This document shows positions 249-11,742 of a stretch of 64,000 nucleotides of DNA, in pieces (position 1 is the first letter of the stretch; the number at the start of each line of letters is the position of its first letter). A program made the translations under genes and the position numbers. The notes beneath the pieces are model-generated. The model was not told the DNA's origin. It worked only from the letters and a program-made list of their open reading frames with translations, and searched no databases. The stretch is from Acidobacteriota bacterium (GTDB lineage Bacteria > Acidobacteriota > Thermoanaerobaculia > Gp7-AA8), in assembly GCA_021325515.1 (NCBI GenBank), contig JAJPHC010000035.1, forward strand, positions 62,001 through 126,000, read 5' to 3'.

Positions 249-313
249 CGCCGCCTGGAGAGGCGGCGCCACGTTCGACCGCGAAGCGCGTAGAGCCGCC
301 TCTCAGGCGGCGG
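249..313. repeat. REP-like cluster 1: one reverse unit (249-275) and one forward unit (289-313)
   Basis: ccgcctggagaggcggcgccacgtt ... gcgtagagccgcctctcaggcggcg; GTRG tetranucleotide plus palindrome. Confidence 0.85.
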
Positions 314-335
314 CAACTTCGTATGACAGCCCTAA

Positions 336-1904
336 TCATTGGAGCCTCTCCAGCAGATGATCGCCGACGCGCAGCGCATTCGCCATGATCGTCAGCGCCG
401 GATTCACCGCGGCGCTCGACGGGAAGAAGCTGCCATCGACGACATAGAGATTGTCGAGATCGTGCGCCTTGCAATTGCGATCGAGCGCGCTCGTGCGCGA
501 ATCGTCTCCAAAGCGAATGGTTCCGTTCTGATGCGCAACGCCGGCTAGCGGGATGCGCTGGCCGACGAACAGATTGCGCGAGAAGAGACCCTGATGGCAG
601 TCATGGCCATGCATTGCGCACTTGCCGGTCTTCTGCATGACGTCCTTCAGCTTCGCGAGCAACCGCTTGTGGCCCTCTTCGTTGTTCGGCTTGTAGTCGA
701 GCACGATCTCGCCATCTTTGTTGAGCTTCACGCGATTCTTCGGATCCGGCAGATCCTCGGACGTAAGCCAGAAATCGATCGAGTGCTTCGCCATGAGATC
801 GAGCGTCCATCCCGGCGCAATGGCGGGAGCTCCTGCTTTCAAGGTCACGCCATCGAGCTTGCCGACGAAGGAGATGTGCCCCATCGGGTAATCCCAATCC
901 TTCGATCCGAAATAGAAGTCGTTCACCGCGAGTGTCTTCTGGAAAATCGTCTCGTTGGGGCACTTCGACAGCGCCATCAGCACCGAGTTGACGTGGCCCA
1001 TGTAGTGCCGGCCGATGACATCGGAACTGTTCGCGAGACCATTCGGATGCTTGTCATTCGCGGAGCGCAGCAACAGCGCGGCGGAGTTGATCGCGCCGCA
1101 GGACGAAACGACGATGTCCGCGGTCAGCTCGATCGTTTCGCCCCCTCTCGACGCAATGACTTTCTCCACGCGCCGGCCGCTGGCATCGGTGGCGAGCTTC
1201 TCGACTTTCGTGTTCGTCATCAGCGCAACGTTGCGATGCTCCAGCGCAGGATCGACGGCGCAGACATGTGCGTCCGCCTTCCCATTGATGAGGCAGGGAA
1301 ATCCGTCGCACGTGTTGCAGCGGATACACGCGCTCGCGCGCCGGTTCGATTCATTGAGGCGAACCCCGAGGGGAACGTGAAATGGCTTGAGCCCGATCGC
1401 GGCGAAGTCATCGCTGAGCTGCTGCATGCGCGGCTCGTGCGACATCGCAGGATGCGGATATGGCGCGCTGGCCCACGGGTCGGTCGGATCTTCCCCGCGT
1501 TCGCCGTGGACTTCGTACAGATTCTCGGCGGCTGTGTAGTAGGGCTCGAGCTCGTCGTAGGAGATCGGCCACGACGGCGAGATGCCGCCATGATGGCGAA
1601 TCTCGCCGAAGTCCTCTTTGCGCAGACGGAACAATGCTGCGCCGTAGAACTTCGTGTTGCCGCCAACCCAATAGTTCGTATGCGGATGCAGAGGCTTGCC
1701 GTCTGCGTCGCGCCACACTTCTTTTGTGTTGTAGCGCGCCTTCACGTTGACGGATTCCGGATCCCAGTTCTCTTTCTCGCGCGGAACGAAGTCACCACGC
1801 TCGATGAGCAGGATCCGCTTTCCGCTGGGCGCAAGTTTCCACGCGAGCGTGCCGCCACCCGCACCAGTACCGATGATGATCACGTCGTAATGGTTGTCGC
1901 TCAT
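336..1904 (-). CDS. GMC-family FAD-dependent oxidoreductase
   Basis: 522 aa; N-terminal FAD motif DVIIIGTGAGGGTLAWKLA and C-terminal 'VVDGSFFPSSAAVNPALTIMANALRVGDHLL' typical of GMC oxidoreductases. Confidence 0.9.
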   Translation of the reverse strand: MSDNHYDVIIIGTGAGGGTLAWKLAPSGKRILLIERGDFVPREKENWDPESVNVKARYNTKEVWRDADGKPLHPHTNYWVGGNTKFYGAALFRLRKEDFGEIRHHGGISPSWPISYDELEPYYTAAENLYEVHGERGEDPTDPWASAPYPHPAMSHEPRMQQLSDDFAAIGLKPFHVPLGVRLNESNRRASACIRCNTCDGFPCLINGKADAHVCAVDPALEHRNVALMTNTKVEKLATDASGRRVEKVIASRGGETIELTADIVVSSCGAINSAALLLRSANDKHPNGLANSSDVIGRHYMGHVNSVLMALSKCPNETIFQKTLAVNDFYFGSKDWDYPMGHISFVGKLDGVTLKAGAPAIAPGWTLDLMAKHSIDFWLTSEDLPDPKNRVKLNKDGEIVLDYKPNNEEGHKRLLAKLKDVMQKTGKCAMHGHDCHQGLFSRNLFVGQRIPLAGVAHQNGTIRFGDDSRTSALDRNCKAHDLDNLYVVDGSFFPSSAAVNPALTIMANALRVGDHLLERLQ

Positions 1905-1938
1905 GAACGAATGAGATGCCGGTGGTCGATGAAGGTTT

Positions 1939-2052
1939 CAACGTAGAGCCGCCTCTCAGGCGGCTCTTTCAAAGCCGGGGGATGACAGCCGCCTCTCAGG
2001 CGGCTCTTTCAAAGCCGGGGGATGACAGCCGCCTGAGAGGCGGCTCTACGTT
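1939..2052. repeat. REP-like cluster 2: two forward units (second lacks the GTAG head) and one reverse unit, including a 40-bp tandem duplication (1947-1986 / 1987-2026)
   Basis: aacgtagagccgcctctcaggcggct; agccgcctctcaggcggctctttcaaagccgggggatgac repeated twice; agccgcctgagaggcggctctacgtt. Confidence 0.93.
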
Positions 2053-2061
2053 TTCGGCGGA

Positions 2062-2526
2062 TTACGTTTCTGTTCGATTGATCCATTCGCGCCATAACCA
2101 CCGGTACTCATCCGGCGTCGCGCAAAGCCCCCGGCGCAGGGGATTCTGTGCGACGTATTCGCACTTGGCACGAAGGCTCTCTCCGTTGCGGAGCTCGTGG
2201 TCGAAGGATTCGTGTTGCCAAACGTGCTGTCCGATAACGCCGCGCAGTTTGTTGATCGATCGCGACGAGGATCCCTTCATCCCCTGAAGCAGCTTTCCTA
2301 ACGAGACGTGCCAGGGAGTGAACACGATGTGCACGTGATCGGGCATCACGACCGCCGCGTGGAGATTCATAACGCGCTGATCATCGAAGACGACGTGCGC
2401 AAGAACAACGTCGCGCTCTGGTGGCGTGAGGATTTGTCTCTGCTGCGTAACGAACGTGACGAAATAGGTATGAAACTCGGTTTGAATGTGCGGAAGGTTG
2501 CGGCGATATACATGTTTCGCAGGCAT
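2062..2526 (-). CDS. REP-associated tyrosine transposase (RAYT; Y1/IS200-like HUH transposase)
   Basis: 154 aa from ATG at 2526: MPAKHVYRRNLPHIQTEFHTYFVTFVTQQRQIL...VVMPDHVHIVFTPW...KCEYVAQNPLRRGLCATPDEYRWLW. HUH motif (HVH) and the Y-x-x-x-NP-x-R-x-GL motif with the candidate catalytic Tyr are both present; flanked on both sides by REP units. Confidence 0.92.
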   Translation of the reverse strand: MPAKHVYRRNLPHIQTEFHTYFVTFVTQQRQILTPPERDVVLAHVVFDDQRVMNLHAAVVMPDHVHIVFTPWHVSLGKLLQGMKGSSSRSINKLRGVIGQHVWQHESFDHELRNGESLRAKCEYVAQNPLRRGLCATPDEYRWLWREWINRTET

Positions 2527-2572
2527 GCACCGAGGCTCCCTCGGCAATCGCAAGCCGTCAAACCTTCCACAA

Positions 2573-2667
2573 AACGTAGAGCCGCCTCTCAGGCGGCTGA
2601 GACCGGAAAGCCGCCTGAGAGGCGGCTCTACGTTGGGGGAAAGCCGCCTGAGAGGCGGCTCTACGTT
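2573..2667. repeat. REP-like cluster 3: one forward (2573-2598) and two reverse units (2609-2634, 2642-2667)
   Basis: Exact matches to AACGTAGAGCCGCCTCTCAGGCGGCT or its reverse complement. Confidence 0.95.
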
Positions 2668-3422
2668 GTCAGCTCCCCGAATGCACAGCGGAAGATGCAG
2701 CGCGCATTCGAGGAGTGGTCCAGCTTCGCGCAGTAGACGCGGCCGCGGTACATCGCGGCAGCGAGCAGCATTCCGATAGGGGGTGCGGTGAAGTAGATCC
2801 AGAGTGCCGTCCAGACTCCGCCCAAGAACGCGGAGGCGAAAGTGCGCGCGGGATTCATGCTCATGCCCGACAACGGAGCTTCGAACGTGATGAAGGCCAT
2901 GACGCACGCGCCGGCAAAGAAAGGCGTGTAGCGCGCGAGCCGCTTTGAATTCGAAACGTTCAGCACCATGGTCATCATCAGAAACGAGATGCCCAACTCG
3001 GCGAAGAACGCGACCACGATTCCGTTGCTGCCGGGCAACGTCTGCACGTAGCCGACGGACGCGTGCGAAAGCCACATGCGGGTCAGGGACGCGAGAAGTG
3101 CCAAGCCGGCGATGCCTCCGACGAACTGCGCAAGCACGTAGCCGACCGCGTCGCGTCCATCGATCTTTCCCAGACGCAGAAACGTGAGCGTGACCGCCGG
3201 ATTCATGTGCGCACCGGATCGTTTGCCCAAGTTCGATCTGATCAAAGCGGTCGCCGTCAGGCCCATCGCCAACCCCATCACCGCGCGTGCGTAGCAGGAA
3301 TCCTCGATGAACATCGGCGACTGTGGGTGGAACAGCAGAATGCCGAACCCACCCGCAGAGACCATGAACAGACCAAGCGCGAGTGCCTCGCAGAAGTATT
3401 CGGGAAAGTGATTCCTATTCAT
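2661..3422 (-). CDS. Aquaporin / MIP-family channel
   Basis: 253 aa, multiple TM segments, two NPA boxes (HMNPAVTLTF, SMNPARTFASAF). Stop codon TAG lies inside REP unit 2642-2667. Confidence 0.9.
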   Translation of the reverse strand: MNRNHFPEYFCEALALGLFMVSAGGFGILLFHPQSPMFIEDSCYARAVMGLAMGLTATALIRSNLGKRSGAHMNPAVTLTFLRLGKIDGRDAVGYVLAQFVGGIAGLALLASLTRMWLSHASVGYVQTLPGSNGIVVAFFAELGISFLMMTMVLNVSNSKRLARYTPFFAGACVMAFITFEAPLSGMSMNPARTFASAFLGGVWTALWIYFTAPPIGMLLAAAMYRGRVYCAKLDHSSNARCIFRCAFGELTT

Positions 3423-4517
3423 TTAGATATTGACGAAGGCTTTGATCACGCCCTTGCCGTTGTTGAGCAGATCGATCGCCTGTGCGAAATTCTCGAGGCC
3501 ATTCACTGGGTGCGTCAGCAGCTTCTTCGCCCAGCCGGGATAGTCGGCGAGGGACTGCGTGAGATCCCTCGCGCCGATCTCGAAGTAATCGCGATTCGCG
3601 TTCACGGTTCCAAACATCACTTTGTTGCCGAGGACGAAGTCGAGGTTGATCTTGTCGGCGGAGATCTCGAGCTTCTTTCCGCCGCCGGTGACGCTCGACA
3701 AAATCAGAATGCCGTTCTTCGCGAGGTTCTCCGCGGCTTCGAACACGACGGCCGAACTGCCGGTCGCTTCGAACATGATGTCGAACGGTCCGAGCTCCTT
3801 CGACGCATCGGTCAGCGACTGCTCCGCCGTGTTGATGTAGTGCGCCCCAACCTCCTCGGCCAGATCGGCATTCACGTAGGGACGAGGAGTGCGGCCAAAC
3901 GTGACGACGTCGAGTCCGCGCAGACGCAGCGCCATCGTTGCCAGCAGCCCGAGCGTTCCCGACCCGAGAACGGCGGCGCGGCGCGGGCGCCAGACTTTCA
4001 GCCGGCGCTGGATCTCGAACGCCTGGACGATTCCCTTTTCCGCGACACTCATCGGCTCGAGCAGGACGCCCACTTCGCTGCACGACTTCGGCACGCGGAC
4101 GATGTACTCCGGCTCGTCGACGTAATACTCAGCGAGATAGCCGTGACGCAGGTTGATGCCGCGCTCGTAGTACACGTCGTCAGTAGTCATGTCGTACTGG
4201 CCGATCCGGTCGTAGAGCGAGCCGCCCGGACGTCGCACTGTGGCGACGACGAAATCGCCCGGCTTCACCTCGTGCACGTTAGCGCCGACCTGTTCCACGA
4301 TGCCGAATGACTCGTGGCCGATGATCAGAAAATCGTCGCCCGCGGGAGGTGCACCGTATTCGGCGTTGTTGATCTCGCGATCGGTGCCATCGACACCAAC
4401 ACGGAGAACCTTGACGAGGACACCACGGCCACCCGGAATGTCATCGATGGAAGGCTTGGGGACATCTCTCAGGTGCACCGAGTTTTTCTGACCGGGGATG
4501 ACTGCGACAGCTTTCAT
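3423..4517 (-). CDS. Zinc-dependent MDR-family dehydrogenase, glucose 1-dehydrogenase-like
   Basis: 364 aa from [22 protein letters not shown]...; '[10 protein letters not shown]', '[14 protein letters not shown]', '[21 protein letters not shown]'. The track ORF extends upstream through REP sequence; the ATG at 4517 is preferred. Confidence 0.85.
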
Positions 4518-4526
4518 GTTGCCTCC

Positions 4527-4600
4527 AACGTAGAGCCGCCTCTCAGGCGGCTGCGTTCCCTGTTCCTCGTAGGTAGCCGCCTGAGAGGCGGCTCTACGTT
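4527..4600. repeat. REP-like cluster 4: forward (4527-4552) + reverse (4575-4600)
   Basis: Exact consensus copies; they occupy nearly the whole 82-nt gap between genes. Confidence 0.95.
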
Positions 4601-7227
4601 CAATGCCGCGAGGAGTCGCCACGCTTGATCAGTGACGCCACGAGTCCGGTCCATCCGGTCTGGTGCGAAGCTCCGACTCCAGACCCGTCGTCGCCGTGAA
4701 AGTATTCGTGGAAGAGCACGTAGTCGCGGAAGTGCGGATCTTGCTGCAGTCTCTGGTTAGACCCGTACACCGCACGCCGCCCGTTCTCGTCGCGAAGGAA
4801 GATGCGTGTCAGTCGCCGCGCCAGTTCGTCCGCGACTTCGCTGATCGTCAGATAGATGCCCGATCCGGTCGGGCACTCGACCTTGAAGTCGTCGCCATAG
4901 TAGGAGTGGAAGCGGCGGAGGCTCTCGACGAGGAGATAGTTCACCGGCATCCAGATCGGTCCGCGCCAGTTCGAATTGCCGCCAAACAAGCCCGACTCCG
5001 ACTCGCCCGGCTGATAGCTCACGGTGAACTGTCCGCCGTCCGCCTGCAGCTCATAGGGGTGATCCTTGTGATAGCGCGACAACGCGCGGACGCCGTAGTC
5101 GGACAGGAACTCCGTCTCGTCGAGCATCCGCCTGAGCAGCCGCTTCATCCGATGCCCGCGCAGCAGCGAGAGCAGATGCACGCTCTTCTCACCGGGCACC
5201 GTCCATCGCGAAACGAGCGACGCGAGATCGGGCCGGTAGTTGAGGAACCACTGGAGCCGGAACTCGAAGTCCGGATTCACGGCAAGGATCTCGGGATCGA
5301 GAATCTCGACCGCGAACAGCGGCACGAGCCCGACCATCGATCGCACCTTGAGGCTCGTCACTCCGTTCGGCGTGTGCAGAACGTCGTAGAAAAACTCGTC
5401 TTCCTGTTCCCACAAAGCCACACCCGAATCACCGACATTCGTCATCGCCTCGGCGATGTGCAGGAAGTGCTCGAAGAACTTCGTCGCCAGATCCTGGTAG
5501 ACATGGCTGCGCTTCGACAGCTCGAGCGCGATGCGCATCAGGTTGAGCGAGTACATCGCCATCCAGCTCGTGCCGTCCGCCTGCTCGAGATGTCCGCCCG
5601 TCGGCAGCGGCGCGCTGCGATCGAACACGCCGATGTTGTCGAGCCCGAGGAAGCCGCCCTGAAAGACGTTCTTGCCTTCGGCGTCTTTGCGGTTCACCCA
5701 CCATGTGAAGTTGAGGCAGAGCTTATGGAAGACGCGCTCGAGAAAATCGAAGTCTCTCTTGCCGTCGATCTCGAAGACGCGCCATGTAGCCCACGCGTGC
5801 ACCGGCGGATTCACGTCTCCGAATGCCCATTCGTAGGCGGGGAGCTGTCCGTTCGGATGCATGTACCACTCGCGCGTCATCAGCAGCAGCTGATCCTTCG
5901 CGAATTCGGGATCGACCTCAGCGAGCGTGACGCAGTGGAACGCGAGATCCCATGCGGCGTACCAGGGGTACTCCCACTTGTCCGGCATCGAGATGACATC
6001 GGCGTTGTTCAGATGCTCCCAGCCGGAGTTGCGCCCTTTCTTCCGCTCCGGAGGTGGCGCCGGCTGACCTGGATCGCCCTTCAGCCACTGCGGAATGTCG
6101 ATGTAGTAGAACTGCTTGGACCAGATCATTCCCGCGAAGGCCTGGCGTTGCACGAGCTTCTGGTCGTCGCTGAGACCTTGCTGCAGCGGCGCGTAGAACG
6201 CATCGGCTTCGGCGATGCGATCGGCGAAGACGCGATCGATGTCGATTTTTTCCTTGTCGCTCGAGAGACGAAGTGAAATCGTCGCCGACTGCCCGCCATC
6301 GATTGCGAGGGTGTACCGCAGTGCGGCCTTAGTACCGACACGATCGGGATTCACGGCATCGCGATGACCATGGATCACTGCCTCGTGAATCGCATCCTTG
6401 AAGTAACCATTCGCATCGACGCCATACAGGCGTCGGGCGTTCGTTTCGTTGTCGCAGAAGAAGACGTCAGGCGTGCCTTCGTATGTCAGCTCATATTCAC
6501 CGAGCTCGTGATGCGACGCTGCGATGCGGTTGCCGGCATCGCGCAACACGGGACGCGTGGCGTCGTATCCCCACGACCACGTGTTTCGGAACCAGAGCTG
6601 CGGAATGACATCGATCTCCGCGCGCTCGATGCCGCGGTTGTGAACGGTGATGCGCGCGACGATGTCGTCGGGACCGTTCTTCGCGTACTCGACAAATACG
6701 TCCCAATAGGCGTCATCATTGAAGATGCCGGTGTCGAGCAGCTCGAATTCGCCATCGAGCTTTCCGCGCCGCCGGTTCTCTTCGATCAGCCAGGAGTATG
6801 GAAACTCCCGCCGCGGATACTTGTAGAGCATGCGCATGTACGAGTGCGTCGGTGTGGCGTCGAGGTAGTAGTAGAGCTCTTTGACGTCTTCGCCGTGATT
6901 GCCTTCGTTGCCGGTGAGGCCAAAGAGGCGTTCCTTCAGAATGGGATCGCGGCGATTCCAGAGCGCGATCCCGAAGCAGAGTCGCTGCAGCTCGTCGCTG
7001 ATCCCGGCGATGCCGTCTTCGCCCCAGCGATAGGCCTTGCTACGGGCCGCGTCGTGCGAGACAAACTCCCACGCATTGCCGTGGGGACTGTAGTCCTCGC
7101 GGACCGTGCCCCACTGACGTTCGCTGACATACGGTCCCCAGCGATACCAGGGCTTACTCGTGGCGGTGTGCTCCGCAAGGCGTTTGCGCTCCTTGTCCAT
7201 TTGCGGAGGTTGGATGCCGTGCAGCAA
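4600..7227 (-). CDS. GH63-like / MGH1-like glucosidase
   Basis: about 866-875 aa; '[25 protein letters not shown]...[14 protein letters not shown]' and '[23 protein letters not shown]' are typical of bacterial GH63-family proteins. Start may be the Met at 7200. Confidence 0.82.
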
Positions 7228-7242
7228 AGAGTGGTTTCAAGA

Positions 7243-7318
7243 AACGTAGAGCCGCCTCTCAGGCGGCTGCGCAGTTGAAAATCACAAGAACCAGCCGCCT
7301 AAGAGGCGGCTCTACGTT
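7243..7318. repeat. REP-like cluster 5: forward (7243-7268) + reverse with variant loop (7293-7318)
   Basis: Forward exact; reverse agccgcctaagaggcggctctacgtt (loop CTC->CTT). Confidence 0.93.
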
Positions 7319-7847
7319 TCGCATAGAACAGCGCCGCCTTCATTCTGTTGCCGCAGCCTTCCATGCTGCACCATCGCCTCGTATGGCTCTTCGTCACGTC
7401 ATAGAACATCAGCACGCAGTTGGTTCCCTGACACGGCTTCACGAGCGTCAAGTCCGCGGAGGCGAGAAAGTCTGCGACGTACGAGGCAAGCCGGAAGAGC
7501 ACGTCGTCGGCCTCAGGCTGGAAGCGCGTATGGATCCCACCTTTCGCGATCGCCAGCTGAAATGAGCCGCGCCCGCGCGCCAATGCGGCGTTGACGACCG
7601 CGACATCGCGCCGCCGTGCGCGACCGCCTCGCGCCAATGTCGTCATCAGTGATCGCGCCGCAGCGCGCAACTCCTTCACCTTCGAGAGCGACAGATGAGA
7701 TCGGATGTCCCGCCCGCTCACTTCTGTCAACCATCGCAGAACGTCTTCAGGCTTCTGCCAGAGATCGACCGGCTCGCCGTCCCGCACGATCTCGGTATTG
7801 AGCAGATCGACGGCCGGATCGCCGCCGATGAAAACAAACGATGACAT
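7299..7847 (-). CDS. CGNR zinc-finger (ABATE-domain) putative regulator
   Basis: 182 aa; C-terminal 'WCSMEGCGNRMKAALFYAKRR'. Final residues RRAAS* are encoded by REP sequence. Confidence 0.82.
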   Translation of the reverse strand: MSSFVFIGGDPAVDLLNTEIVRDGEPVDLWQKPEDVLRWLTEVSGRDIRSHLSLSKVKELRAAARSLMTTLARGGRARRRDVAVVNAALARGRGSFQLAIAKGGIHTRFQPEADDVLFRLASYVADFLASADLTLVKPCQGTNCVLMFYDVTKSHTRRWCSMEGCGNRMKAALFYAKRRAAS

Positions 7848-7849
7848 GG

Positions 7850-7878
7850 TTGACAGACTAGGTCTACTGCTCTATAAC
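7850..7878 (+). promoter_or_regulatory. Near-consensus sigma70-type promoter for the VOC gene
   Basis: TTGACA (7850-7855) - 17 nt - TATAAC (7873-7878), followed by GGAGG (7896-7900) and ATG at 7907. Confidence 0.65.
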
Positions 7879-7906
7879 CGTCAATATCAAGTTTTGGAGG
7901 TTATAC

Positions 7907-8347
7907 ATGCAGACAGCACACATCGGCATCAACGTCACCAATCTGGACCGCTCCACCTCTTTCTACAGCGAGGTCTTCGGACTCTCGCCCATGGGAGGCT
8001 CCGACGCGCCCCCCCGGCGCTTCGCCTTCCTCGGCGACGGAGAGAACCTCGTCCTCACCTTGTGGGAGCAGAGCGAAGGACGCTTCGAAAGCACACGTCC
8101 GGGACTGCATCACCTTTCGTTCATGGTGCCGTCTCTCGATCGCGTGCGCGAGGCTGAGAAGAAGCTTCTCCTGCGCGGCACGCCGTTCAAGTACGAGGGC
8201 ATCGTCGCGCACATCGAAGGCGCAGCGTCCGGCGGAATCTACTTCGAGGATCCGGATGGAACGAGACTGGAGATCTTCACGCCCGGCGGCGTTGACGCTG
8301 TAGAGTCGAAGACGAAGACGCACGGACCGGCGTGCGGTTTCTTCTGA
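7907..8347 (+). CDS. VOC-family (glyoxalase/bleomycin-resistance-like) protein
   Basis: 146 aa MQTAHIGINVTNLDRSTSFYSEVFGLSPMGG...IYFEDPDGTRLEIF. Confidence 0.88.
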   Translation: MQTAHIGINVTNLDRSTSFYSEVFGLSPMGGSDAPPRRFAFLGDGENLVLTLWEQSEGRFESTRPGLHHLSFMVPSLDRVREAEKKLLLRGTPFKYEGIVAHIEGAASGGIYFEDPDGTRLEIFTPGGVDAVESKTKTHGPACGFF

Positions 8348-8355
8348 GGTCCGCG

Positions 8356-9087
8356 ATGTACCACGAAGGAGAGCTCAGCGTTCAGCGAAAAGCCGGCGTC
8401 GCGGCCGAGGCGGCGCGGGTCGGACGAATCATCGGAAAGACGATTCCGCCGGTCGCCGCGGATTTCCTCGCGGCGCAGTCCATCGTGATCGCATCGACGA
8501 TCGACAGGGAGGGGCTCGTATGGGCCACTCCCCTTATCGGCTCGTTCTGCGCAGAGGATTCGCAGACGCTTCGCATCCGCACTTCGACGGATCTGCAGCT
8601 CGACGATCCCCGCATCGGTCTTCTGGCAATCGATTTCGAGACGCGGCGCCGCATGCGCATCAATGGAAGAGTCACGCGCGACGGCCGCGACTTCATCGTA
8701 ACGGCGGACGAGGTCTATTCGAACTGTCCGAAATACATTCACCCGCGGCCGGCGAAGCCCGACACGTCGTCGCCGGAGCGATGGATCGCCACGAGCGACA
8801 CCTTCTTCATCGCTTCCGTGAATCCAGACCGGGGCGCCGACGCATCGCATCGCGGAGGCGATCCCGGCTTCGCCCGCCTCGACGGCACTCGCATCACGTT
8901 TCCTGACTACAGCGGCAACAACATGTTCAACACGCTCGGCAATCTCGAAACGAACCCGGACTGCGGACTACTGTTTCTGGATTTTGATCAGGGAAGGATC
9001 TTGCAGATCAGCGGAAAGGGACACATAGAGTGGGAGCCGGAACGGCGCGTCGTCATCGACGTAAAGCCGCCTCTCAGGCGAACGTAG
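8356..9087 (+). CDS. Pyridoxamine 5'-phosphate oxidase-like flavin/FMN-binding protein
   Basis: MYHEGELSVQRKAGVAAEAARVGRIIGKTIPPVAADFLAAQSIVIASTIDREGLVWATPLIG...GNNMFNTLGNLETNPDCGLLFLDFDQGRILQISGKG. The C-terminus KPPLRRT* is encoded by REP sequence. Confidence 0.75.
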   Translation: MYHEGELSVQRKAGVAAEAARVGRIIGKTIPPVAADFLAAQSIVIASTIDREGLVWATPLIGSFCAEDSQTLRIRTSTDLQLDDPRIGLLAIDFETRRRMRINGRVTRDGRDFIVTADEVYSNCPKYIHPRPAKPDTSSPERWIATSDTFFIASVNPDRGADASHRGGDPGFARLDGTRITFPDYSGNNMFNTLGNLETNPDCGLLFLDFDQGRILQISGKGHIEWEPERRVVIDVKPPLRRT

Positions 9088-9225
9088 AGCCGCCTCTCAG
9101 GCGGCTGACGAGAAAGAAGCCGCCTGAGAGGCGGCTCTACGTTGACAGACGAGAAAGAAGCCGCCTGAGAGGCGGCTCTACGTTGACAGACGAGAAAGAA
9201 GCCGCCTGAGAGGCGGCTCTACGTT
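9065..9225. repeat. REP-like cluster 6: one truncated forward, one full forward (9081-9106), three reverse units (9118-9143, 9159-9184, 9200-9225) with 41-bp period
   Basis: gacagacgagaaagaagccgcctgagaggcggctctacgtt is identical at 9144-9184 and 9185-9225. Confidence 0.95.
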
Positions 9226-11162
9226 GACAGTTGCGGAGCGCGCGGTTGCGCCGGCCGCACGGTGCGCGCGCAATCCTCCGTCGCGGCGCGAAGGATCTCG
9301 CCCACACTCCACGCCTGCGCGATGCAGCCGCGTGGTGTGTGCGGCGCGGCACCATCAAAGATCTCGGAGACCGTGCCGATCCCCGCCTCCTCGAGATGCC
9401 TTTCCAATCCATCCAGAATCCGCGATGCCTGCGCCACTCCCGCGTCGCCCCGCACGCGCACGAGTGCAGTGATGAACGGCCCGAGAAGCCACGACCAGAC
9501 CGTCCCCTGGTGATACGCGCCATCACGCTCGCGCGGACCACCGATGTACGTCCCGATGAACTTCGGGTCGCTCGCGGCGAGTGAGCGCAGTCCGAAGGGC
9601 GTCAGAAGCTCTTTCTCGACCGTAGCAAGAACCTTCTCGGCATAGATCCCGTCGAGCAGAGGATGCGGCAGACTCAGAGCAAAGATCTGGTTGGGCCGGA
9701 TGCTCGCATCGCATTCTTCACCACGCACGACATCGAAGAGTGATTCCTTCTCTTCATTCCAGAAGAGCCTTCGAAACAGAACACGCACCCGCGCGGCGGC
9801 GATGGCGAGGGCGCGTGCATCGCGCTCTGTGCCCCAGCGCTGCTCGTATCCGGCGAGGATCATGAGTGCGTTGAACCAGAGCGCGTTGATCTCGACAGCC
9901 TTTCCGTGCCTCGGCGTAACCACCCAGTCGCCAACCTTGGCGTCCATCCACGTCAACTGATCGCCCGCGCTTCCAGCAAGAAGAAAACCATCTTCGTCAA
10001 CGTGAATGCCGTGTCTCGTGCCTTGCTGGTGCCACGCAATGATGTCGCGCAGCACAGGCAGGAGGTGGCGTTTCACAAAGTCGTCGTCACGTGTGTAATC
10101 GAGATACTTCTGCGCGGCAACAAAGAACCAGAGCGTTGCGTCGGCTGTGTTGTACTCCGGAGCCTCGCCGCCATCGGGAAAGCGATTGGGCAGCATTCCC
10201 TCGCTCACGCTCTCGACGAAGGCGAGAAGAATCTTTCGCGCATCCTCGAAGCGACCAGTCGTCAGACAGAGGCCGGGAAGCGCGATCATCGTGTCGCGTC
10301 CCCAGTCGGTGAACCAGTGATAGCCGGCGATGATCGTGCGGCGATCCGTGCCTCGCCGCACGATGAACTGATCGGCCGCGAGCGCGAGCGTTTGTCCGAG
10401 CCTTCCCTTGATCCCAACGCTCTTGACCAACATTTCTCGACGGCGACGCTCGCTCTCAAAGAGCGCGATCCCATCGCGGCCGCGAGGATCGGAGATCGAC
10501 GCAATCACCGCAAGCACGTCGCCCTTCCGTAGCACACGCGTCAGCGTGCCGGGAGTGAAGAGATCTTCATGCGCATCCAGCCCGCGCTCTTGCTCGATTG
10601 CGTATTCGAAACGGAAGTACCAGTCCGGCGCCGCATCGAATCGTGCGCGGGGCGCGGAGAGAAACAACGTCGGAAGCCCGTCATAGGGTTGCAACGCGAA
10701 GACGCCGTCGTCGAAGCGCGTTTCGCGATGGACTCCGTCATTCGCGTGCACGAGACTGTGGTAGTCGCGGCTGGCGATGAACGGGCGAAGCTCGAGTTGC
10801 ACATCACCATTGGCTTCGAGGACTTCATAAAGAATGACGGTGGTGTTCTCGCCGTGAATCGCGGCGATCGTCTTTCGCAGTCTCACACCGCCCGCGGCAT
10901 ATTCGAATCGCGGAAAGAGATGCCGCTCGAACGACACCAGGTGTTCGAAGCCGCGAGGATGAATCGTTCCGGGAAATTGATTCGCGCCGAGGTCGATCCC
11001 GTTGATCCGCTCGTCGATCTTCGAAAGGAGAACCACTCTTCCCACGGGCGGGCTGGTCGCGGCAACCAGCAGCCCGTGGTAGCGGCGCGTGTTGATTCCG
11101 CACACGGTGGAGCTGGCGTATCCGCCAACGCCGTTGGTTTCGAGCCACTCACGTAAGTCCAT
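9219..11162 (-). CDS. Glycogen debranching enzyme-like (amylo-alpha-1,6-glucosidase family)
   Basis: 647 aa; 'REWLETNGVGGYASSTVCGINTRRYHGLLVAA', 'AGYHWFTDWGRDTMIALPGLCLTTGR', 'YHQGTVWSWLLGPF'. Stop TAG lies inside REP unit 9200-9225. Confidence 0.9.
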   Translation of the reverse strand: MDLREWLETNGVGGYASSTVCGINTRRYHGLLVAATSPPVGRVVLLSKIDERINGIDLGANQFPGTIHPRGFEHLVSFERHLFPRFEYAAGGVRLRKTIAAIHGENTTVILYEVLEANGDVQLELRPFIASRDYHSLVHANDGVHRETRFDDGVFALQPYDGLPTLFLSAPRARFDAAPDWYFRFEYAIEQERGLDAHEDLFTPGTLTRVLRKGDVLAVIASISDPRGRDGIALFESERRRREMLVKSVGIKGRLGQTLALAADQFIVRRGTDRRTIIAGYHWFTDWGRDTMIALPGLCLTTGRFEDARKILLAFVESVSEGMLPNRFPDGGEAPEYNTADATLWFFVAAQKYLDYTRDDDFVKRHLLPVLRDIIAWHQQGTRHGIHVDEDGFLLAGSAGDQLTWMDAKVGDWVVTPRHGKAVEINALWFNALMILAGYEQRWGTERDARALAIAAARVRVLFRRLFWNEEKESLFDVVRGEECDASIRPNQIFALSLPHPLLDGIYAEKVLATVEKELLTPFGLRSLAASDPKFIGTYIGGPRERDGAYHQGTVWSWLLGPFITALVRVRGDAGVAQASRILDGLERHLEEAGIGTVSEIFDGAAPHTPRGCIAQAWSVGEILRAATEDCARTVRPAQPRAPQLST

Positions 11163-11173
11163 GACTCCCCCGT

Positions 11174-11251
11174 AGCGTAGAGCCGCCTCTCAGGCGGCTG
11201 CCCATTCGCAGCCTCTCAGCCCATTCGCCGCCTGAGAGGCGGCGCTACGTT
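11174..11251. repeat. REP-like cluster 7: forward (11174-11199) + reverse (11226-11251) with C-G terminal stem pair
   Basis: gcgtagagccgcctctcaggcggct ... cgccgcctgagaggcggcgctacgtt. Confidence 0.93.
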
Positions 11252-11742
11252 GTGGCTGGAACGAGCTCCGGCTCGCTCTTGCCAGTCTTCACCCGCGCAA
11301 TCAACGTGTCCAGTGAGAAGAAGCCTGGACCGAAGCCCAGAATGACCAGCGAAACCACCAGATACAGGAATGGCGTCGCTGCGATGAACGCATCGGGGTT
11401 GTTGAATGCGTTCACGAACGCTTCGTGATCACCCGCGGCGTAGGCGACGATGAAGTTGATCACCAGCGGGATCGCGATCAGCCGGGCGGCAAGCCCGGCG
11501 AGCAGCAGCAGGCCGCCGAAGCATTCGAGCGATGCGACGAATCGAGCGTTCAACTCAGGCATCGGCACATGCAGCGAGGTGAGATAGCCGGTGAACTGCT
11601 CGAGGTTCCCGAGTTTCCCCCTGCCTGTCAGAAACAACTGCCAGCCGATGTAGAGGCGCCCGATCAGCAGCAGCGGACTGCGCAGGTAATCGAAGCCGCG
11701 CGTCATCGCAAGGCGGTAGAGATGTTCGATCTTCTTCATCAT
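11245..11742 (-). CDS. DoxX-family membrane protein
   Basis: 165 aa; 'SPLLLIGRLYIGWQLFLTGRGKLGNLEQFTGYL...FGGLLLLAGLAARLIAIPLVINFIVAY'. Stop TAG lies inside REP unit 11226-11251. Confidence 0.85.
   Translation of the reverse strand: MMKKIEHLYRLAMTRGFDYLRSPLLLIGRLYIGWQLFLTGRGKLGNLEQFTGYLTSLHVPMPELNARFVASLECFGGLLLLAGLAARLIAIPLVINFIVAYAAGDHEAFVNAFNNPDAFIAATPFLYLVVSLVILGFGPGFFSLDTLIARVKTGKSEPELVPATT

Follow-up and report, generated by a model that had tools for sequence, protein, structure and literature searches.

Genome-wide dispersal is usual for REPs, although it does not define them and exceptions are known (PMC2817692, PMC8266576). Nunvar 2010 (PMC2817692) described REPs amassed around the rayt genes of Thauera, a betaproteobacterium, and of three gammaproteobacteria of marine origin, and suggested that the REPs were produced locally once the system had been transferred. 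Corneloup 2021 (PMC8266576) likewise read the REPs near the RAYT of Marinomonas as a recent arrival with local multiplication. Di Nocera 2013 (PMC3733652) found GTAG REPs in many phyla, with the elements of T. roseum clustered at few loci. In the established biochemistry of TnpA-REP, single-stranded DNA is cut next to the hairpin and then transferred (PMC8266576).

The locus described here lies in a 64,000-nucleotide stretch of an acidobacterial genome, analyzed as a whole and referred to as the window. It resembles REPtron Sm of Stenotrophomonas maltophilia (group 3; PMC8266576, PMC2817692) in having a 23-nt REP with GTAG directly before an 8-bp perfect stem and a 3-nt loop, and in having REPs that flank a single RAYT and form inverted pairs. 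In contrast, Stenotrophomonas REPs are spread genome-wide (37 to 427 perfect copies per repeat), whereas the window family is held within 11 kb in an acidobacterial host. Concentration of REPs near the transposase gene is shared with REPtrons Ma and Mb of Marinomonas sp. MWYL1, with marine gammaproteobacteria, and with Thauera (PMC8266576, PMC2817692); however, the REP regions of those bacteria reach up to two hundred kilobases, compared to 17 of 18 copies in 11 kb for the window family, which belongs to another phylum. The E. coli TnpA-REP (4er8), with its y and z REPs, has the HUH-Y fold, the guide-recognition residues, and the GTAG head in common with the window system, but in E. coli the REPs have bulges and lie dispersed, and the position of E. 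coli E100 is D109 in the window RAYT. The likeness to IS200/IS605 (IS608, ISDra2) is in the Y1 HUH catalytic core. Because RAYT-proximal accumulation of REPs is already known in Proteobacteria, the locus adds an unusually compact acidobacterial example and not a new kind of element.

The RAYT (TnpA-REP) gene, an HUH Y1 transposase, occupies 2062-2526 on the minus strand and encodes 154 aa with the motifs MPDHVHIV (HUH) and Y124-x3-N128-P-L-R-R-G-L. The initial annotation had recognized a Y1 HUH transposase of this length from the same motifs, and the catalytic residues proved invariant: H64, H66, Y124, and N128 were unchanged in two family alignments, and the N-terminal T24 as well as P129 were invariant or almost so, in line with the RAYT motif Y---NP(L/V)(R/K)xG. 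The NCBIfam model NF047646 (REP_Tyr_transpos) scored the ORF at 95.9 bits (cut-off 80) and Pfam Y1_Tnp at 35.2 bits. The IS200/IS605 transposase equivalog model reached only 29.6 bits against a cut-off of 55, so that the HMM comparison proposed earlier came down on the side of a RAYT. The nearest solved structure by sequence was 4er8, E. coli TnpA-REP, which was also the top PDB match of the AlphaFold model (pLDDT 85.8), with IS200/IS605 transposases next. In 4er8, TnpA-REP is in complex with a REP hairpin. The guide-recognition residues W103, Q104, D109, H110, and R113 are conserved, and their spacing matches that of E. coli W94, Q95, E100, H101, and R104. Aspartate at the position of E. coli E100 marks RAYT subclasses 2.5 and 2.7 (PMC6006769), and the window RAYT carries the W, Q, D, H, and R residues of these group 3-like subclasses. 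The gene is single-copy, and its nearest paralogue in the same genome, on contig C11, is 46% identical. Judged from copy number, the RAYT does not move as an IS. Identity as an IS200/IS605 transposase was rejected on the score below cut-off, the gene not being multicopy, and the Y-x3-NP motif.

The REP most likely mobilized by this RAYT is a 23-mer, GTAGAGCCGCCTCTCAGGCGGCT, with 17 matches in the window at 0-3 mismatches compared to 0 in 100 dinucleotide shuffles. Thirteen of these 17 local copies are identical in sequence. The architecture of a GTAG head, an 8-bp perfect stem, and a 3-nt loop, with REPs arranged as inverted pairs, agrees with what had been read from the sequence earlier. When folded as single-stranded DNA, one REP gave the 8-bp stem and 3-nt loop at -10 kcal/mol (z -4.6), and one REP pair gave a perfect long hairpin at -36.4 kcal/mol (z -12.3). 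Two looser local copies, one at 250-272 (minus strand, GTGG head, CTCC loop) and one truncated REP at 9061, bring the local total to 19 REP elements at 7 sites between window positions 250 and 11248.

The gene was confirmed to lie between clusters 2 and 3. Cluster 2 (1943-2049) contains plus-strand REPs at 1943 and 1983, the latter with the head TGAC, and a minus-strand REP at 2027-2049, in a 40-bp tandem repeat. Cluster 3 (2576-2664) contains a plus-strand REP at 2576 and minus-strand REPs at 2609-2631 and 2642-2664. Cluster 1 (250-312) pairs the GTGG-headed variant, which has a 4-nt loop, with a plus-strand REP at 290-312. Clusters 4, 5, and 7 are inverted pairs: cluster 4 (4530-4597) is formed by a plus-strand REP at 4530 and a minus-strand REP at 4575-4597, the right REP of cluster 5 (7246-7315) is the sole copy with a CTT loop, and the right REP of cluster 7 (11177-11248) is the variant GTAGCGCC..GGCG. 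Cluster 6 (9061-9222) holds the truncated plus-strand REP at 9061, another plus-strand REP at 9084, and three minus-strand REPs in 41-bp tandem units. The outer REPs are plus on the left and minus on the right at six of the 7 sites; cluster 1 is arranged oppositely.

REPs occupy most intergenic gaps of the block, and five host genes, all assigned by Pfam, have their stop codon inside a REP. The aquaporin (MIP) gene (2661-3422, minus strand) ends in the TAG of GTAG in the REP at 2642-2664. The TAG of GTAG in cluster 6 is the stop codon of both the PNPOx-like gene (8356-9087, plus strand) and the amylo-alpha-1,6-glucosidase gene (9219-11162, minus strand), and the DoxX family gene (11245-11739, minus strand) stops at the TAG of GTAG in the right REP of cluster 7 (11226-11248). 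The ABATE/CGNR zinc finger regulator gene (7299-7847, minus strand) ends in cluster 5, where the REP with the CTT loop creates the TAG. Since the Pfam domains of most REP-ended genes reach the gene ends, the insertions seem to trim tails only. Pfam also identified a GMC oxidoreductase (336-1904), a zinc alcohol/glucose dehydrogenase (3423-4520), and an MGH1-like glycoside hydrolase (4600-7227), all on the minus strand. Within the block, REPs were absent from the aquaporin/dehydrogenase and glyoxalase/PNPOx junctions, which are almost gapless, and from the divergent gap at about 7850-7906. There was no support for a general rule by which REPs follow stop codons in the sense direction, with 36 sense and 25 antisense REPs away from the RAYT; the commonest single sense offset was +1, at which the TAG of GTAG serves as the stop (12 of 82).

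A search of the whole 5.38-Mb genome at up to 3 mismatches returned 18 copies of the REP, and a separate pattern search agreed with this count. Seventeen lie at 62290-73248 of the contig that carries the window (C56; window 290-11248), and the other is a lone variant on contig C44. No copies were found in the 40 kb upstream or in the remainder of the window. The probability that at least five of the six non-flanking sites would fall inside 18 kb by chance is 2.5e-12. REP density in the block is 1.7 elements/kb, whereas none of the relatives counted exceeds 0.09/kb over its whole genome, a difference of about 19-fold. Thus, with 18 copies of which 17 are local, the family does not have the high copy number and genome-wide dispersal expected of REP elements. 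A generic REP pattern had 57 matches in G000 compared to 212 for the reversed control, 508 in G010, and 271 in G014.

The genome has seven Y1_Tnp genes, several of them with flanking palindromes of their own. The REP of the C11 RAYT had 187 matches scattered on many contigs, and the REP of the C30/C54 RAYT had 292, also scattered on many contigs, with some palindromes possibly counted twice. Sister REP families are therefore scattered in the same genome, which indicates that the host does not block dispersal and that confinement is a property of the window family. Tandem arrays with repeat units of 7 and 9 bases (CGTTCAT, GTCCCATCC, CTCAGCA, and others) were common near the other Y1 genes of this genome (L008-L019).

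A RAYT homolog was present in 27 of 40 relatives. RAYTs from the same family, at 58-63% identity, are flanked by REP variants whose stems differ by compensating changes (GTAG-GGCCGGCT-CTCC-AGCCGGCC, GTAG-GTCGGACT-CTCC-AGTCCGAC, and GTAG-AGCCGACT-CTC-AGTCGGCT), and related repeats are scattered in relatives at 372, 222, approximately 508, approximately 271, and approximately 101 copies. Of the 148 genomes of the class, three contained the 23-mer with at most 1 mismatch, namely its own genome, G006, and G014, all of one family. Across many phyla, a headed hairpin lay beside the gene at 85 of 89 RAYT loci, some of the picks being weak single hits. REP sequence tracks RAYT sequence: their distances were correlated over 67 loci (Mantel r 0.303, p 0.0005), and the maximum of 2000 permutations was 0.135. 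The initial annotation had inferred a complete REP/RAYT system in a lineage that looked non-gammaproteobacterial. The host does belong to an acidobacterial family, and the HMM score, the flanking REPs, and the REP-RAYT covariation uphold a complete system, though one that is locally confined and not genome-wide. The annotation had set as its refuting condition that the repeat be missing both from the rest of the genome and from relatives with a RAYT. Outside the 11 kb the genome has just 1 copy, but two relatives carry the repeat, and others contain many copies of its close variants.

REPs were also found closer to the RAYT than expected at other loci. At 27 other RAYT loci, the mean distance of 42 further REP sites was 3.37 kb compared to 4.77 kb if uniform (p 0.0002), and the trend held without locus L108, with the window excluded too (p 0.0016). 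Further REPs became sparser with distance from the RAYT, numbering about 0.07 per kb between 0.6 and 2.5 kb and 0.011 per kb between 8 and 10 kb. In genome G041, a 4.2-kb stretch surrounding the RAYT contains at least 14 of 21 copies. The REPs flanking the RAYT of this locus (L144, 4273-6952) share one orientation and form a tandem array that repeats about every 57 bp. In the MAG JABCZL01 (L108, 4820-14343), the RAYT is surrounded by eight single REPs that without exception face inward, and several of them start a few bases past the end of an ORF. Single distant REPs had their body toward the RAYT in 30 cases and away in 8 (two-sided p 0.0005; p 0.016 without L108). We dropped the claim that REPs are oriented toward the RAYT, because REP orientation in L108 also follows the direction of the neighboring ORFs.

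We consider it probable that a REPtron, that is, a single-copy RAYT with its cognate REPs, arrived recently and multiplied locally. By analogy with the TnpA-REP biochemistry of E. coli, Stenotrophomonas, and Marinomonas, the RAYT protein would bind the GTAG-headed hairpin in single-stranded DNA, Tyr124 would cut beside the hairpin, and REP units would be joined or copied into nearby single-stranded DNA. Following a recent arrival, REPs would have been seeded in most intergenic gaps within about 9 kb and in one place elsewhere, and tandem duplication would then have enlarged clusters 2, 3, and 6. The identity of 13 of the 17 local copies fits a young family; gene-conversion homogenization of an old cluster would also give identical arms. 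An old, once dispersed family that has decayed everywhere except beside its transposase is very unlikely: the lone C44 variant could be a relic, but the local copies are almost identical and no degenerate population was found with the generic pattern in G000. It is possible, though we think unlikely, that the whole block was horizontally transferred from a REP-rich genome and that no multiplication took place here. The G+C content of C56 from 42 to 79 kb (0.605-0.625) is below the genome sample mean of 0.636, C56 40-126 kb contains none of the scattered native REP families, and the same 23-mer is found in G014 and G006. In addition, the MGH-like gene is nearest, at 63%, to a genome from another family, and the second MGH-like copy of its own genome, at C35, is 53% identical. 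However, REPs fill just 11 kb of a low-GC stretch of about 37 kb (C56:42001-79500, window -20000 to 17500), and the REP is missing altogether from G020, whose MGH homolog is the closest. Because no genome counted is as REP-dense as the block, local multiplication would be needed somewhere even with transfer; arrival on a transferred segment is plausible.

The palindromes might instead be functional terminators or mRNA 3'-end hairpins that were selected and spread by recombination, with the transposase incidental. Their position in intergenic gaps adjoining stop codons, the five genes that end within a REP, and the very stable hairpins given by REP pairs are in keeping with such a role, which is nonetheless distinctly unlikely given that REP and RAYT sequences track each other over 67 loci and that no other genes in the 5.4-Mb genome use the repeat at their ends. 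The divergent promoter gap without REPs would be expected from purifying selection alone. An assembly or binning artefact, with C56 chimeric or foreign, is highly improbable. Although the genome is in 63 contigs and its G+C varies by region, the block is internal to a 144.7-kb contig that also carries native REP families, and completeness is 99.84 with contamination of 0.

The spacers bear on how the REPs of the probable local multiplication would have moved. When the six inter-REP spacers (10-27 nt) were compared pairwise, no similar pair was found, and the six clusters therefore do not have the spacer conserved across copies that defines a REPIN. In the relative G010, two flanking REP pairs share matching spacer ends in inverse orientation. 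Because the window spacers are unrelated, one fixed REP pair moving as a unit does not explain the window, and one has to suppose either that REPs inserted singly and became paired afterward or that spacers were captured. Repeated insertion of single REPs close to one already in place, and tandem duplication thereafter, could produce the pattern of the window. A broader reading, which we offer only as a speculation, is that RAYT action is mechanistically local, so that each family begins as a kilobase-scale cluster round its gene and disperses slowly, with single REPs as the moving unit and pairs forming in place. Such locality might be caused by excision and re-insertion in the single-stranded DNA of one replication fork.

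The spread of REPs is still poorly understood, and a tight and probably young family together with older dispersed families provides a natural series in one host. The unrelated spacers argue against the fixed pair as the sole moving unit. These data extend RAYT-proximal REP accumulation to Acidobacteria and quantify the distance trend across several phyla.
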